From: Leisingera sp. SS27
Lineage (GTDB): Bacteria; Pseudomonadota; Alphaproteobacteria; Rhodobacterales; Rhodobacteraceae
NCBI RefSeq assembly: GCF_028368855.1
Contig: NZ_JAQNCY010000007.1
Location: 124,001-188,000, forward strand
DNA length: 64,000 nucleotides
Direction of reading: 5' to 3'
In this document: positions 58,547 to 64,000 of the stretch, piece by piece
Position numbering within the stretch: position 1 is the stretch's first letter
How the letters are laid out: each line of letters opens with the position of its first letter
Translations under genes and position numbers: made by a program
Notes under the pieces: model-generated
The model's database searches: none
What the model saw: only the letters and a program-made list of their open reading frames with translations
What the model was told of the DNA's origin: nothing

Positions 58547-59971
58547 ATGGCAAAGAAACCTGATACCCCCCTGCCCCCCTATTTCAACCTGGATCCGGAG
58601 GCAGCAGCGGCCAAGCTTGGCGAACTGGTGGATACCGCCAGATTTGCCAAGGCCGCCGCCTTTGCGGGCCGCGGACGCGACGATCTGGCCAAGCGCGGCT
58701 ACGCCCCCGACGGCCGCAAGCGGCTGCGCAAATTCTCCACCTGGGAGATTACCCGTTACCTGATCCCAGTGGCCCCCGCTCACCTGCGCCGGGTCCTGAA
58801 CAAGAACCCCGACCTGCCCCAGGGCGAAGGCGCCAGCGGCTCCAAATGGTTCACGCTGGAGGAGGTGCTGAAACTGCGCGACCACTTCGCATCCGAAGGC
58901 ATCAGCACCAAGGAATACCGCCCCTACCGCCCCGAAGGGCTGCCCGCCAAGGTCGTCGCGGTCGCCAACTTCAAGGGCGGCGTCGGCAAGACCTCCACTG
59001 CCGCCCATCTGGCGATGTCCGCCGCACTCGACGGCTACAAGGTGCTGGTGGTCGACCTCGACAGCCAGGGCTCTATGACCTCGATCCTCGGCGGCCAGGT
59101 GGCCGATGAATGGCAGACCGTCTTCCCCCTCCTCGCCCGCGACTATGCCGAGGCGGTGGAGGCTGAAAACAAGGTCCGCGCAGCCTCTGGATTAGACTCT
59201 ATTCCGCTGGATGAGACTCTGACCGAGGCCAAGGAGGTTTCGCTGCGAAACGTGGTCCAGAAAACCCACTGGCCCAACATCGACCTCATCGGCGCCCAGC
59301 TGAACCTCTACTGGGCCGAATTCCAGATCCCGGTCTGGCGCATGGGGCTGCGCAATTGGGCGCTGTGGGATGCGCTGACCAACGCGCTGGAGGCCGGCGG
59401 CGCGCTTGATGAATATGACATCGTGCTGCTGGATACCCCCCCTGCCCTCGGCTACCTCACCATCAACGCGCTGGCCGCCGCCGACATCCTGATGGTGCCG
59501 CTGGGCGCGTCCTTTCTGGAGTTCGACTCGACAGGCCGCTTCTTCGACATGCTCTATTCCACCTTTGCCTCTATCGAGGACGGCGAGAACGCCGGCCGCC
59601 GCCGCGCAGGGCTGCCGGAGATGAAGTTCGAATGGGACGTGGTGCGTGCCCTGATCACCCGCTTTGACGCCAGCCAGCAAAGCGACCTGGCCAATGTGAT
59701 CCAGGCCTATTTCGGCGACATGATGAACGCCTACCGCCAGGACTATACCGCCCTCGTCGGTCAGGCCGGCGAAAGCGTGTCCGGCATCTACGAGGCGGAC
59801 TACCGCAACTTCAACCGCGAGACCTATGTGCGCGGCCGCGAGGTGTTCGACCGCACCTATGCGGAATTCAAGGAGCTTCTGATCGGCAGCTGGTGGCGCG
59901 ATCAGCAGATGGAGCAGGCAGAACAGACCCCAAAAGAGGACAGAGCAGATGGCACGCCGCAGACAGCTTGA
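58547..59971 (+). CDS. parA: Plasmid partition ATPase ParA
   Basis: A 474-aa ParA of the long (type Ia) class. It has an N-terminal helix-turn-helix region (about residues 50-110), then the deviant Walker A VANFKGGVGKTSTAAHLA, VVDLDSQGSMTS, and DIVLLDTPPALGYLTINAL. It segregates the replicon with ParB and may repress its own operon through the N-terminal domain. ATG 58547 is preceded by AAGG. The frame is open upstream but without conserved sequence. It overlaps parB by 23 bp and contains one parS-like palindrome. Confidence 0.93.
   Translation: MAKKPDTPLPPYFNLDPEAAAAKLGELVDTARFAKAAAFAGRGRDDLAKRGYAPDGRKRLRKFSTWEITRYLIPVAPAHLRRVLNKNPDLPQGEGASGSKWFTLEEVLKLRDHFASEGISTKEYRPYRPEGLPAKVVAVANFKGGVGKTSTAAHLAMSAALDGYKVLVVDLDSQGSMTSILGGQVADEWQTVFPLLARDYAEAVEAENKVRAASGLDSIPLDETLTEAKEVSLRNVVQKTHWPNIDLIGAQLNLYWAEFQIPVWRMGLRNWALWDALTNALEAGGALDEYDIVLLDTPPALGYLTINALAAADILMVPLGASFLEFDSTGRFFDMLYSTFASIEDGENAGRRRAGLPEMKFEWDVVRALITRFDASQQSDLANVIQAYFGDMMNAYRQDYTALVGQAGESVSGIYEADYRNFNRETYVRGREVFDRTYAEFKELLIGSWWRDQQMEQAEQTPKEDRADGTPQTA
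59237..59251. other. parS-like palindrome inside parA
   Basis: GTTTCGC-T-GCGAAAC, identical in core to the four sites after parB. It is in frame within parA (around EVSLRN). Confidence 0.6.
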
Positions 59972-61043: not shown

Positions 61044-61065
61044 GCGGGCAGGGGCCGCATCAGTG

Positions 61066-61080
61066 GTTTCGCAGCGAAAC
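61066..61080. repeat. parS-like site 1
   Basis: GTTTCGC-A-GCGAAAC, 23 bp after the parB stop. It overlaps the start of the terminator stem. Confidence 0.7.
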
Positions 61081-61104
61081 CCCGGCTGAAGGGCCGGGGT
61101 TTTT
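61078..61104 (+). terminator. Rho-independent terminator of parAB
   Basis: Stem AACCCCGGC (61078-61086) and GCCGGGGTT (61093-61101), followed by TTT. It lies 35 bp after the parB stop. Confidence 0.85.
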
Positions 61105-61134
61105 CATTGCCGCTGTGGCCTGAAGGGCAGGGAG

Positions 61135-61149
61135 GTTTCGCTGCGAAAC
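61135..61149. repeat. parS-like site 2
   Basis: GTTTCGC-T-GCGAAAC with matching flanks (AG before, CT after), giving a 19-bp palindrome. Confidence 0.7.
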
Positions 61150-61243
61150 CTCTGAACCGCCCAATCCTCCCTGCGGCGCCCTTTTCGCAGCGGCCCGCTC
61201 AGCAATGGCGTTCTTGCCTGCGGGCTGCATTGCCCCGTGAGAG

Positions 61244-61258
61244 GTTTCGCTGCGAAAC
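61244..61258. repeat. parS-like site 3
   Basis: GTTTCGC-T-GCGAAAC, flanked by GAG and CTC as in site 2. Confidence 0.7.
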
Positions 61259-61356
61259 CTCCAAACCGGACAGGCTTGGAAGACAGGGGGCAGAACCGCC
61301 GTCCATCCAGGTCAGCTGTAAACCAGAGCGCGACAGTGATGCCATGCGCGGCCCAG

Positions 61357-61371
61357 GTTTCGCTGCGAAAC
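61357..61371. repeat. parS-like site 4
   Basis: GTTTCGC-T-GCGAAAC with the AG/CT flanks. Confidence 0.7.
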
Positions 61372-61559
61372 CTCTGCAGCCTCAGACCGGCAGCGGGCAG
61401 TCACGCCCCTGCAGCAGGCGCGCGGCCCGCCGCCTTTGGCAGATTTTGTGGTTTTTTTGGCGCTTAATTTTCCGGCGGCTTGGGCATCACCGGAACAGGG
61501 CAGATGTCCGGCACCCGTGCTGGCCGCGCCCTTTCGGTGGCAACAGACGGAGCACGGAC

Positions 61560-62921
61560 GTGAGTGAAGACAGCCCGCATATCTACCGGTGCATCGGCAT
61601 CGGTTTCGGCCCCTCCAACATCGCGCTGGCAATTGCGCTCGAGGAAGCGGGGGAACTGGACAATGTGCTGTTTCTGGAAAAAGCGGCAGCGCCGGACTGG
61701 CAGGGTGAATTCCTGATCGATGGCAGCGACATCCAGCACAATCCGCTGCGTGACTTTGTAACCCCGCGCAACCCGGCTTCTCCCTATGGGTTTCTCAGTT
61801 ATCTGAAGGCAAAGGGCCGCCTGTTCGAATTTCTCAACCTCGAAGCGCCCTATCCGCCGCGCACCGAATACGCCCGCTATACCGTATGGGCAGCGCGTCA
61901 GTTCGACCGCGCAGTGCGCTACAGCGCCGCGGTGCGCAGCCTGGAATATACCGAGGCCGGGGGGCTTCCTGCGGTGCGGGTCGGGCTGGAAAGCGGGGAG
62001 GTCCTTCTTGCCCGCAGCGTGAGCTTTGCGCCGGGCCGGTCAATCAGCATCCCCCAGCCCTTTGCCGCGCAAATGGGCGGGCGCATGGTGCATGCGGCGC
62101 AATACCGCTCCGCCGTGGCCCGCTGGCAGCAGGAGGGCACTGTCCGGCGCATCGCCGTGATCGGTGCCAGCCAAAGCGCGGTGGAAATGCTGCTGGATCT
62201 GCCGGGCCATTTCCCGCAGGCGCAGATCACCGGCATCTGCCGGTCCTTCGGTTACAAGCAGAAGGACCTCAGCCCGTTCACCGAACGGGTGTATGAGCCG
62301 GAGTTCGTCGACCGTTTCTACGGCGCGCCGGAGGACGTGCAGAACAGCATGCGGCGGGAGCTGTGGCGCAGCAACTATGGCGCCGCTGACCATGACGTGA
62401 TCAATGCGCTGCAGTTCCGCATGTACGAACAGCGGGTCACCGGGCGGGCACAGATCGTGCTGCTGGACAACAAGACCACGCAGGAGATCGCGCCGCAGGG
62501 CGGGGCAGGGGGCTTTGAACTGAGGCTGCTGGACCGGATGGATCGCAGCGAAACCCGGGCGGAATTTGATGCGGTCATTCTGGCGACAGGCTTCCTGAAC
62601 CACGGCAGCGCGCCTGAAGGCGAGCCCTTTCACCCGCTGCTGGCCGGCATTGCCGAAGAGGCCCGGTTCCGTGCGGACGGCGCCATCGCCCAGGCGCGGG
62701 ACTACCGGCTGCTGATCAAGCCGGGCCTGACGCGGGCCCCGGTCTTTCTGAACGGCGTTTCGGAAACCAGCCACGGCTTTGGCGATGCCGGCTCCTTCAG
62801 CCTTCTTTCGGTCCGCTCGGCTGAGCTGGCCCGGTCGATTGCCGCTGTGCCGGTCCGGCCGCAGAACAACTCATCCGGCGCAGGGCAGGACACCCCTGCG
62901 CGGACGGTCCAACCCGCATGA
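61560..62921 (+). CDS. Lysine/ornithine N-hydroxylase of a putative N-N bond pathway
   Basis: A 453-aa flavin-dependent N-monooxygenase of the IucD/PvdA/SidA family. The FAD motif is CIGIGFGPSNIALAIAL, the NADPH motif AVIGASQSAVEMLLDL, and the C-terminal ATGF motif is FDAVILATGFLNH. It hydroxylates the side-chain amine of lysine or ornithine; the substrate cannot be told by eye. It starts at GTG 61560 and overlaps the cupin gene by 4 bp. Petrobactin needs no N-hydroxylation. With the cupin and MetRS-like genes it matches the trio that makes hydrazines from N6-hydroxylysine. Confidence 0.88.
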   Translation: MSEDSPHIYRCIGIGFGPSNIALAIALEEAGELDNVLFLEKAAAPDWQGEFLIDGSDIQHNPLRDFVTPRNPASPYGFLSYLKAKGRLFEFLNLEAPYPPRTEYARYTVWAARQFDRAVRYSAAVRSLEYTEAGGLPAVRVGLESGEVLLARSVSFAPGRSISIPQPFAAQMGGRMVHAAQYRSAVARWQQEGTVRRIAVIGASQSAVEMLLDLPGHFPQAQITGICRSFGYKQKDLSPFTERVYEPEFVDRFYGAPEDVQNSMRRELWRSNYGAADHDVINALQFRMYEQRVTGRAQIVLLDNKTTQEIAPQGGAGGFELRLLDRMDRSETRAEFDAVILATGFLNHGSAPEGEPFHPLLAGIAEEARFRADGAIAQARDYRLLIKPGLTRAPVFLNGVSETSHGFGDAGSFSLLSVRSAELARSIAAVPVRPQNNSSGAGQDTPARTVQPA

Positions 62922-63364
62922 CGAGGCAGATTATGTTTGCACTGAAAGACAGAGAGACATTTGACATTGAAACCCTGGTGCGCCGCGGCGAAAGCGCGGT
63001 GACAACGCGCGAGTACAACGCCGACCTGCGGCGGCTGCTGCCCTGGCCGGGGCGCGTGAACAGCAAGCGCCCGCTGACGGAATTCGGCGCCATCCTGGTG
63101 ACCATCCGGCCGCAGGAGGACGTCGATGCCCACCGCCACGACGAGGAGGAATGCTTTATCGTGACCGCGGGCCGGGCGGATTTGGAGATTGAAGGCCAGA
63201 CAACGCAACTGTTCGCCGGCGACGTCGTCTATATCCCGCGCTTCTGGATGCATCAGCTGCGCAATCCGAACTTTGAACCATTTGTTTTTGTTGATCTTTA
63301 CTGGGATGACAAGGGCCGAAGCTTTGAAGTGTTTTCTGCAGCCGAGCTTGAGGAGGCCCTGTGA
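62918..63364 (+). CDS. Cupin protein of a putative hydrazine synthetase
   Basis: A 148-aa single-domain cupin with a complete metal site: His72, His74 and Glu78 in DAHRHDEEECFIV, and His112 in PRFWMHQLRN. In the known hydrazine synthetase Spb40 a cupin domain is fused to a MetRS-like domain and performs the N-N bond rearrangement. Here the cupin is a separate gene wedged between the N-hydroxylase and the MetRS-like gene with 4-bp and 1-bp overlaps. That arrangement strongly links the three. A stand-alone sugar or regulatory cupin is less likely in this context. Confidence 0.82.
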   Translation: MTRQIMFALKDRETFDIETLVRRGESAVTTREYNADLRRLLPWPGRVNSKRPLTEFGAILVTIRPQEDVDAHRHDEEECFIVTAGRADLEIEGQTTQLFAGDVVYIPRFWMHQLRNPNFEPFVFVDLYWDDKGRSFEVFSAAELEEAL

Positions 63365-64000
63365 TGAAACCCGCGTCTTCCCCTCCCGATTTCATCGTCA
63401 CCCTGCCGCCGCCGACCCCGAACGGAGGGCTGCATGTGGGCCATATGGCGGGGCCGTTTCTGGCCGCTGACATCTTTGCCAAGGCAGCCCAGGCGGGCGG
63501 TCAGAGCGTGCATGTGCTGTCTTTCAGCGACACCAACCAGTCCTATGTGCGGGCGACCGCGGAAAAGCAGGACCGCGATCCGGCGGAGCTGGCATCCGGC
63601 TGGACACGCGACATCCTGGACACGCTGGAGATCTACGGTTGCCAGGTCGACAACTACTTCGAACCGGGCCCGGCCTCGGACGGCTTTGTGCGCGACACGC
63701 TGCTGCGGCTGTATGATCAAGGCATCTTAAAGAAAAAAACTTTTCCGTTCATGTATTTGCCGGATCAGGAACAGTTTCTGGACGAAGCCGGGGCGAGCGG
63801 GTTGTGCCCGCGCTGTCTGGATGACTGCAAGTGCGGCATCTGCGAGGCCTGCGGGTTTCCGACCCGGGCGGACACGCTGCTGAACCCGCGGTGCACCAAT
63901 GATCCCGCAGCCCGGGTTGAGGTCCGCCACGCCGAGGTGCTGGTGCTGGAACTGGAGGCCTGGCGCGATGCTCTGCGGCGCTTCCACAACTTCGGCACCG
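63364..64000 (+). CDS. Methionyl-tRNA-synthetase-like protein, partial at right edge
   Basis: 212 codons are visible, continuing beyond the window. The N-terminus is class I synthetase: DFIVTLPPPTPNGGLHVGH with the HIGH-like HVGH (residues 24-27). A zinc-knuckle insertion of MetRS type follows (CPRC, CKCGICEACG; Cys148-163). KMSKS would lie outside. The protein starts at ATG 63364 overlapping the cupin stop. Its place after an N-hydroxylase and a cupin fits the MetRS-like module that activates an amino acid such as glycine for ligation to N-hydroxylysine. A housekeeping MetRS is unlikely in this operon, but the full gene must be seen. Confidence 0.82.
   Translation, partial: MKPASSPPDFIVTLPPPTPNGGLHVGHMAGPFLAADIFAKAAQAGGQSVHVLSFSDTNQSYVRATAEKQDRDPAELASGWTRDILDTLEIYGCQVDNYFEPGPASDGFVRDTLLRLYDQGILKKKTFPFMYLPDQEQFLDEAGASGLCPRCLDDCKCGICEACGFPTRADTLLNPRCTNDPAARVEVRHAEVLVLELEAWRDALRRFHNFGT

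Follow-up and report, generated by a model that had tools for sequence, protein, structure and literature searches.

At the end of a 64,000-nucleotide stretch of the Leisingera sp. SS27 genome (assembly GCF_028368855.1, contig NZ_JAQNCY010000007.1; hereafter the window, G000:C28:124001-188000 in our numbering, part of a 229-kb contig), three overlapping genes on the + strand probably encode, as judged from sequence, a two-protein hydrazine synthetase together with its N-hydroxylase. The first, NMO1 (61560..62921, GTG start), encodes a flavin N-hydroxylase of 453 aa (PF13434, 265.7 bits), the start of which matches that of the annotated gene in Leisingera sp. S132 (98% identity). It overlaps by 4 bases with the gene for cupin A (62918..63364, 148 aa; PF07883, 55.8 bits), a stand-alone cupin of the N–N-forming type, and this overlaps by 1 base with the gene for a MetRS-like ligase (63364..64884, 506 aa, ATG start; PF09334, 165.6 bits), which runs past the end of the window at 64000. 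All three genes of this triad are thus present as described in a first-pass annotation of the window; reading on past 64000, as it had proposed, places the end of the MetRS-like gene at 64884 and finds that the gene set continues for a further 13 kb.

All catalytic residues that have been probed in PyrN, the pyrazomycin enzyme, are present in the triad. The full His/His/Glu/His metal site already noted in cupin A consists of H72, H74, E78 and H112 (H50/H52/E56/H90 in PyrN), with a spacing of +2, +4 and +34 equal to that of PyrN and of RHS1 from Rhodococcus jostii; H72, E78 and H112 are invariant in 42 of 42 sequences and H74 is kept in at least 90%. The MetRS-like protein has the HVGH motif (residues 24–27) and zinc knuckle (Cys4: C148/C151/C160/C163) recognized earlier, as well as KFSTS at 326–330, and these positions are invariant across 33 sequences, bar V25 and K326 (the latter at least 90%). 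K326 corresponds in the alignment to residue 350 of the PyrN chain, or K458 in a numbering derived by hand. In the structural comparison that had been suggested for the MetRS part, the nearest solved structure is the MetRS-like domain of PyrN, and the protein is nearer to characterized hydrazine synthetases than to MetRS.

The fold itself follows MetRS over almost the full length of the protein, including a C-terminal helical bundle that occupies the site of the MetRS anticodon-binding domain, and so might speak for a duplicated or resistance methionyl-tRNA synthetase. However, a full housekeeping MetRS is encoded elsewhere in the genome (G000:C23; 475.9 vs 166 bits for the MetRS-like protein), so that the latter is not the sole MetRS, a case that the first-pass annotation had raised against its own reading. 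Moreover, the best score of the MetRS-like protein against curated MetRS models, 212.1 bits, falls far below the cut-offs of the six NCBIfam models matched (336–633 bits), and its gene shares an operon with those of a cupin and an N-hydroxylase, the arrangement seen in PyrN-type sets. We consider a tRNA synthetase extremely unlikely. Two observations on the cupin weigh against the hydrazine synthetase reading: cupin A lies nearer to plu4264 and 4rd7, two structures without an assigned function, than to RHS1, and in the profile comparison RHS1 does not outscore oxalate decarboxylases. Because PyrN is the nearest structure, the catalytic residues are kept and the housekeeping MetRS is separate, the triad is still best read as probably forming an N–N bond.

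The separation of cupin and MetRS-like parts had been presented as a split didomain. The two genes are confirmed, but the arrangement is not new: according to the parts of PMC8664883 consulted, enzymes of this class are occasionally two stand-alone proteins, as demonstrated for R. jostii RHS1, and the portion of PMC11705231 consulted gives further stand-alone pairs in its Table 2 and separate Afn8 and Afn9 for albofungin. Among the 80 nearest MetRS-like loci (the best 80 of 507 related stretches), 71 have a separate cupin A-like open reading frame (ORF), one has a fusion (Frankia, L076) and eight have no cupin A-like match within their flanks; at least 20 kb of sequence is available in just 63 of the 80, and absences are to be read as lower bounds. 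With these published pairs and loci in view, we dropped fusion or splitting as a novelty. The enzyme class is already known; what is new is the combination of modules described below and, probably, the product.

The triad stands at the head of a cassette of 16 genes and 15.9 kb (61449..77354; right end G000:C28:201354), the borders of which are set by homology: the match to two other Leisingera genomes (G405, Leisingera sp. JC1; and G400) spans 61449 to 77354 in both and ends with the stop codon of the last gene, encoding a KASIII-like enzyme. Beyond these borders, the flanks in G405 and G400 (7–13 kb) have no match in the 98 kb of our own sequence used for comparison. After the MetRS-like gene follow, on the + strand and in order, genes for a DUF3291 protein, a LysE exporter, a Peripla_BP_6-like protein, a second cupin (cupin B), a DAO-type oxidase and a GNAT protein; then, on the opposite (−) strand, a lumazine-binding-like gene and an MFS gene; and finally a block encoding a GlxA-type regulator, an EctB-type aminotransferase, a second N-hydroxylase (NMO2), a CGS-like pyridoxal phosphate (PLP) enzyme and the KASIII-like enzyme.

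The cassette is complete (about 15.8–15.9 kb) in three of 21 genomes of the genus, namely our own, G405 and G400. In G400 it lies on a contig of 4.14 Mb and is bounded on either side by transposase or integrase genes; the copy in Leisingera sp. S132 (G411) is broken, and the remaining 17 genomes have short or paralogous matches only. None of the 16 genes is disrupted, and their dN/dS values are 0.04–0.27. The cassette is one self-contained unit under purifying selection, whole in three Leisingera species in differing settings. At 90 and 88%, its identity to the two relatives is near the 92 and 90% measured over 1.2 kb of metG, and thus there is no sign of very recent transfer. Across the wider family, MetRS-like matches at E ≤ 1e-40 are rare (four of 394 sampled genomes, our own included). 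At the S132 locus (L018, NZ_CP083557.1, 8869–11872) the MetRS-like gene lies in two frames and is cut at residue 272; the gap holds PAAR and phage baseplate genes, CGS-like remnants are present and the KASIII-like gene is intact. JC1 has a second, partial metG-like match (G405:C154:6419-7216; 80% DNA identity) beside its normal metG.

Several of the accessory genes recur in related clusters. DUF3291 (L004:4877-5437, in window numbering 64877-65437) is the best-conserved gene of the set, with 63–68% identity in L042, L043, L044 and L045 vs 46–53% for the MetRS-like protein; the sole paper found on it is a general DUF database. The gene resembling Peripla_BP_6 solute-binding proteins (L004:6160-7227) has been retained in hydrazine clusters that are only distantly related (L042, L044, L045, Deinococcus, Pantoea). 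No ABC transporter gene occurs within the cassette, and the protein is perhaps a ligand sensor or an enzyme. Considered as a possible second N–N-forming cupin, cupin B shows Q/H/E/H at its metal positions on inspection by eye, and its profile comparison with cupin A indicates a general cupin relation only (18% identity). In 58 of the 80 loci the best match to a DAO profile (12 training rows, nine of them taken from the 80 loci) is no more than 5 kb away from the MetRS-like gene; in 12 it is 5–10 kb away, and 10 have no match. Of the 58, 42 reach at least 250 bits, and the rest may be other flavoenzymes. The GNAT protein is 55% identical to that of Litchfieldella.

Taken by gene types, the cassette also invites comparison with a cluster for a hydroxamate siderophore or another N-hydroxylated metabolite, in which the MetRS-like protein and cupin would have roles other than N–N bonding. 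It holds two SidA/IucD-type N-hydroxylases, a GNAT protein and exporters, and antiSMASH 3.0 is reported to find three siderophore clusters in the carrier JC1, of which one might be this cassette. Against this, Pfam scans of the 16 genes find no nonribosomal peptide synthetase (NRPS), NRPS-independent siderophore synthetase or receptor, the MetRS-like protein is nearest to PyrN, and the cupin keeps the residues catalytic for N–N bonding. A siderophore-type cluster therefore seems very unlikely.

The last genes of the cassette form a distinct module. EctB, NMO2 and the CGS-like and KASIII-like enzymes (module 2) have counterparts, in the same order, on plasmid pRvVAR031a of Agrobacterium vitis VAR03-1, at identities of 58% (EctB), 55% (N-hydroxylase), 50% (CGS-like) and 47% (KASIII-like), and are preceded there by a GlxA-type gene (36%) in the opposite orientation; no MetRS/cupin set is annotated in the 29 kb examined of that plasmid. 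NMO1 is just 36% identical to the Agrobacterium module-2 N-hydroxylase and is akin to hydrazine-linked N-hydroxylases (see below). Since module 2 stands alone on the Agrobacterium plasmid while NMO1 belongs with the hydrazine set, the Leisingera cassette combines, by sequence comparison, two modules that are found apart elsewhere, and it holds one EctB only. NMO1 and NMO2 are the only strong Lys/Orn N-hydroxylase matches in the genome, three others being weak (20–29 bits).

Module 2 is rare in the samples searched, and its set of N-hydroxylase, gamma-PLP enzyme and KASIII-like enzyme points to chemistry outside that described for the hydrazine pathways in the literature consulted. A KASIII-like match at E ≤ 1e-20 occurs in one of 385 genomes of the class and a CGS-like match at E ≤ 1e-95 in one of 398 of the phylum, in each case our own; these samples are sparse, since they did not pick up the two known Leisingera carriers. 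At E ≤ 1e-60 the CGS-like enzyme is found in one of 72,556 plasmid records (the Agrobacterium one). It has no match in any of the 80 hydrazine loci, which include JC1, although the JC1 locus stops short of that gene. Matches to KASIII in four of these loci were weak (25–41 bits) and were discounted. The PLP lysine is conserved in the CGS-like enzyme. For the KASIII-like enzyme, an alignment in which own_FabH and own_C30 are the valid control rows shows the Cys as kept, with the FabH His replaced by Asn and the FabH Asn by His; this pattern suggests that the enzyme transfers acyl groups instead of catalysing a decarboxylative condensation. The Agrobacterium cluster (L121, 8843–21981) adds a Haem_oxygenas_2 protein, a carbamoyltransferase, a LysE protein and a GDSL hydrolase; as gene types only, the carbamoyltransferase and LysE genes are like those of FVG/gvg-like clusters, as far as PMC8064604 was consulted. 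Plasmid pBRH01 of Mycetohabitans rhizoxinica (L124, 8562–11404) carries a pair of L-2,4-diaminobutyrate (DABA) transaminase and N-hydroxylase genes with no MetRS/cupin set annotated nearby; thus this pair recurs in other pathways.

Which amino acid does NMO1 hydroxylate? The cassette holds a candidate source of DABA, by a criterion set in this analysis rather than taken from papers: the EctB-type aminotransferase passes the TIGR02407 cut-off for ectoine EctB (573.6 vs 552.2 bits), and its best PDB matches are DABA transaminases (E about 1e-133). Profile scans found no match to ectA or ectC among the cassette genes. Seven of the 80 loci (L041, L042, L043, L044, L049, L062, L071) have an EctB-type gene no more than 5 kb from the MetRS-like gene, and in an eighth, JC1, the distance is 7.4 kb. 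The Leisingera MetRS-like protein falls in a fully supported proteobacterial clade of eight rows, six of which have EctB nearby (own and JC1 included); the tree was made by a quick method, with long branches flagged and the R. jostii and housekeeping rows unsure, and just this clade is used. A Xenorhabdus plasmid carries a MetRS-like gene, an N-hydroxylase and ectB together, and Apy11/Apy9 are reported to use N4-hydroxy-DABA (PMC11705231, consulted in part). NMO1 is 48–54% identical to the N-hydroxylases adjoining the MetRS-like genes of L041, L042, L044 and L045, in its own clade, and 42–54% identical to the hydrazine-linked proteobacterial N-hydroxylases compared, except those of a Rhizobacter metagenome-assembled genome (two, 32 and 33%) and Xenorhabdus (40%). 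Because of the EctB-type gene, its counterparts beside related loci, the clade, the Xenorhabdus plasmid and the Apy precedent, the N–OH donor is probably N4-hydroxy-DABA rather than hydroxylysine, and the lysine or ornithine substrate with glycine partner of the first-pass annotation is probably wrong in detail.

Some evidence weighs against DABA. EctB has no match inside the flanks of 72 of the 80 loci, including, among the clade members, Litchfieldella and the Rhizobacter genome; the N-hydroxylases of s56-p1, triacsin, pyrazomycin and dob act on lysine, according to the parts of PMC11705231 and PMC13061610 consulted; and the cassette EctB sits in module 2, being 57.6% identical both to the Agrobacterium module-2 EctB and to the closest hydrazine-linked EctB, so that it need not feed NMO1. 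One could thus suppose that NMO1 makes N6-hydroxylysine, that this is coupled with glycine or some other amino acid in the manner of s56-p1, triacsin, azaserine and pyrazomycin, and that EctB serves module 2 alone; the Agrobacterium module has its own EctB and no hydrazine set annotated in those 29 kb. Yet in the seven loci listed above EctB stands beside the hydrazine set with no CGS-like match in the flanks, and NMO1 is 42–54% identical to the N-hydroxylases of six of the seven and 53% to that of the seventh, L043. Lysine appears rather unlikely.

We thus favour, at a probability of roughly 70%, the view that the triad is a two-protein hydrazine synthetase heading a DABA-fed biosynthetic cassette. 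The genes, their residues, the fold, the gene neighbourhoods, the unit boundaries and the purifying selection are as observed above, and the chemical steps, the use of DABA and the part assigned to module 2 are all modelled on characterized relatives. The EctB-type aminotransferase would convert aspartate semialdehyde to DABA, and NMO1 would hydroxylate this to N4-hydroxy-DABA. The MetRS-like protein would activate a second amino acid with ATP (precedents are alanine or glycine) and esterify it onto the N–OH, after which the zinc cupin would rearrange the O-ester to form the N–N bond. The DAO-type oxidase may then cut one C–N bond to give a smaller hydrazine, releasing 2-amino-4-hydrazinobutyrate by an Apy10-type cut, or an alpha-hydrazino acid and aspartate semialdehyde by a Spb39-type cut, the semialdehyde perhaps being re-aminated by EctB. 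The GNAT protein would acylate the hydrazine, and the LysE and MFS proteins would export the product. Module 2 (NMO2 and the CGS-like and KASIII-like enzymes), probably DABA-fed too, could either tailor the hydrazine or join a second N–O unit to it.

More tentatively, it is possible that the product is a new small N–N/N–O amino-acid metabolite built from two DABA-derived units. Module 1 would turn N4-hydroxy-DABA into the hydrazine, with aspartate semialdehyde perhaps recycled by EctB as a nitrogen carrier, while module 2 would supply a second N-hydroxylated DABA unit, undergoing gamma-replacement or gamma-elimination by the CGS-like enzyme and acylation by the KASIII-like enzyme. Such a product, if real, could contribute to the non-indigoidine anti-Vibrio activity of Leisingera sp. 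JC1, which was isolated from squid eggs and whose antibacterial activity has been explained only in part. The product is likely to be new, given the probable use of a different amino acid and the rare second gene set; no paper on this cassette was found in the open-licence PMC literature, and Proteobacteria are among the sources of the 129 clusters that PMC13061610 mined, which may include this one. As the cassette is short and its borders are exact, the product is testable by deletion or expression. These results place a compact N–N-bond pathway in marine roseobacters, and offer enzymology a hydrazine synthetase that occurs naturally as two proteins and probably prefers DABA; it comes from a proteobacterial MetRS-like clade that has full support in the tree and in which no characterized member was found.

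The first-pass annotation had placed the triad beside a plasmid centromere, which fits the upstream sequence. There, parA- and parB-like genes (so named also in the Leisingera sp. S132 annotation) are followed by four exact copies of a 17-bp palindrome, GGTTTCGCNGCGAAACC, at 61065..61372 (unstranded), between parB and the cassette, vs none expected (100 shuffles). With a copy at 59236 that has one mismatch, all five lie around parAB; we call them ‘parS-like’, a label chosen in this analysis. They are neighbours of the cassette rather than part of it, the gap to its start being 77 bp. Beyond its other end lies a giant RTX-type ORF of 3668 aa (in G000:C28:201968-219922, in window numbering 77968-95922), the S132 counterpart of which is annotated with an NPCBM/NEW2 domain, the region being present also on the S132 plasmid; a LysR regulator and then two type I secretion ATPases and an HlyD-type adaptor follow.

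Among known systems, PyrN and the RHS1/MetRS pair of R. jostii RHA1 are like the Leisingera enzymes in their MetRS-like fold, ATP motifs, zinc-cupin spacing and cluster-encoded N-hydroxylase. The two-protein form is common to R. jostii and Leisingera, whereas PyrN is fused; the Leisingera MetRS-like part is 28% identical to PyrN and 29.5% to the R. jostii protein, for which the amino-acid partner is Glu, and its cassette differs from both in having an EctB-type gene. In actinopyridazinone biosynthesis (Apy9/Apy10/Apy11), which we liken by description only, the N–OH partner is N4-hydroxy-DABA and a DAO-family oxidase follows; the second N-hydroxylase and the CGS-like and KASIII-like enzymes of Leisingera are not mentioned for Apy in the part of the text consulted. 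The first steps of triacsin, azaserine, diazoacetone (dob) and s56-p1 biosynthesis, from partly consulted sources, share with Leisingera the N-hydroxylase, MetRS and cupin, as s56-p1 and triacsin share the DAO-type oxidase and dob the GNAT protein, but they use lysine and glycine, unlike the probable DABA of Leisingera. In dob a succinyl-transferring GNAT is followed by an adenylase, a carrier protein, a flavoenzyme and a C45 peptidase, then by a polyketide synthase and an FDO, and triacsin and azaserine likewise have an adenylase, carrier protein, further flavoenzyme and peptidase (PMC13061610, as far as consulted). Adenylase, carrier protein, second flavoenzyme and peptidase are absent from the 16 cassette genes (Pfam; cassette only, the rest of the genome was not searched), and so the known route is unlikely to give a diazo product from the cassette alone. 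Clusters of Photorhabdus luminescens DSM 3368, Azospirillum soli, Agrobacterium sp. a22-2 and Litchfieldella anticariensis belong to the same MetRS-like clade as Leisingera; they have no CGS-like match within their flanks, and those of Photorhabdus and Litchfieldella have an ATP-grasp gene that the Leisingera cassette lacks, but all four share with it NMO1, cupin A and the MetRS-like protein and, in subsets, DUF3291, the Peripla_BP_6-like protein, cupin B, GNAT and EctB.

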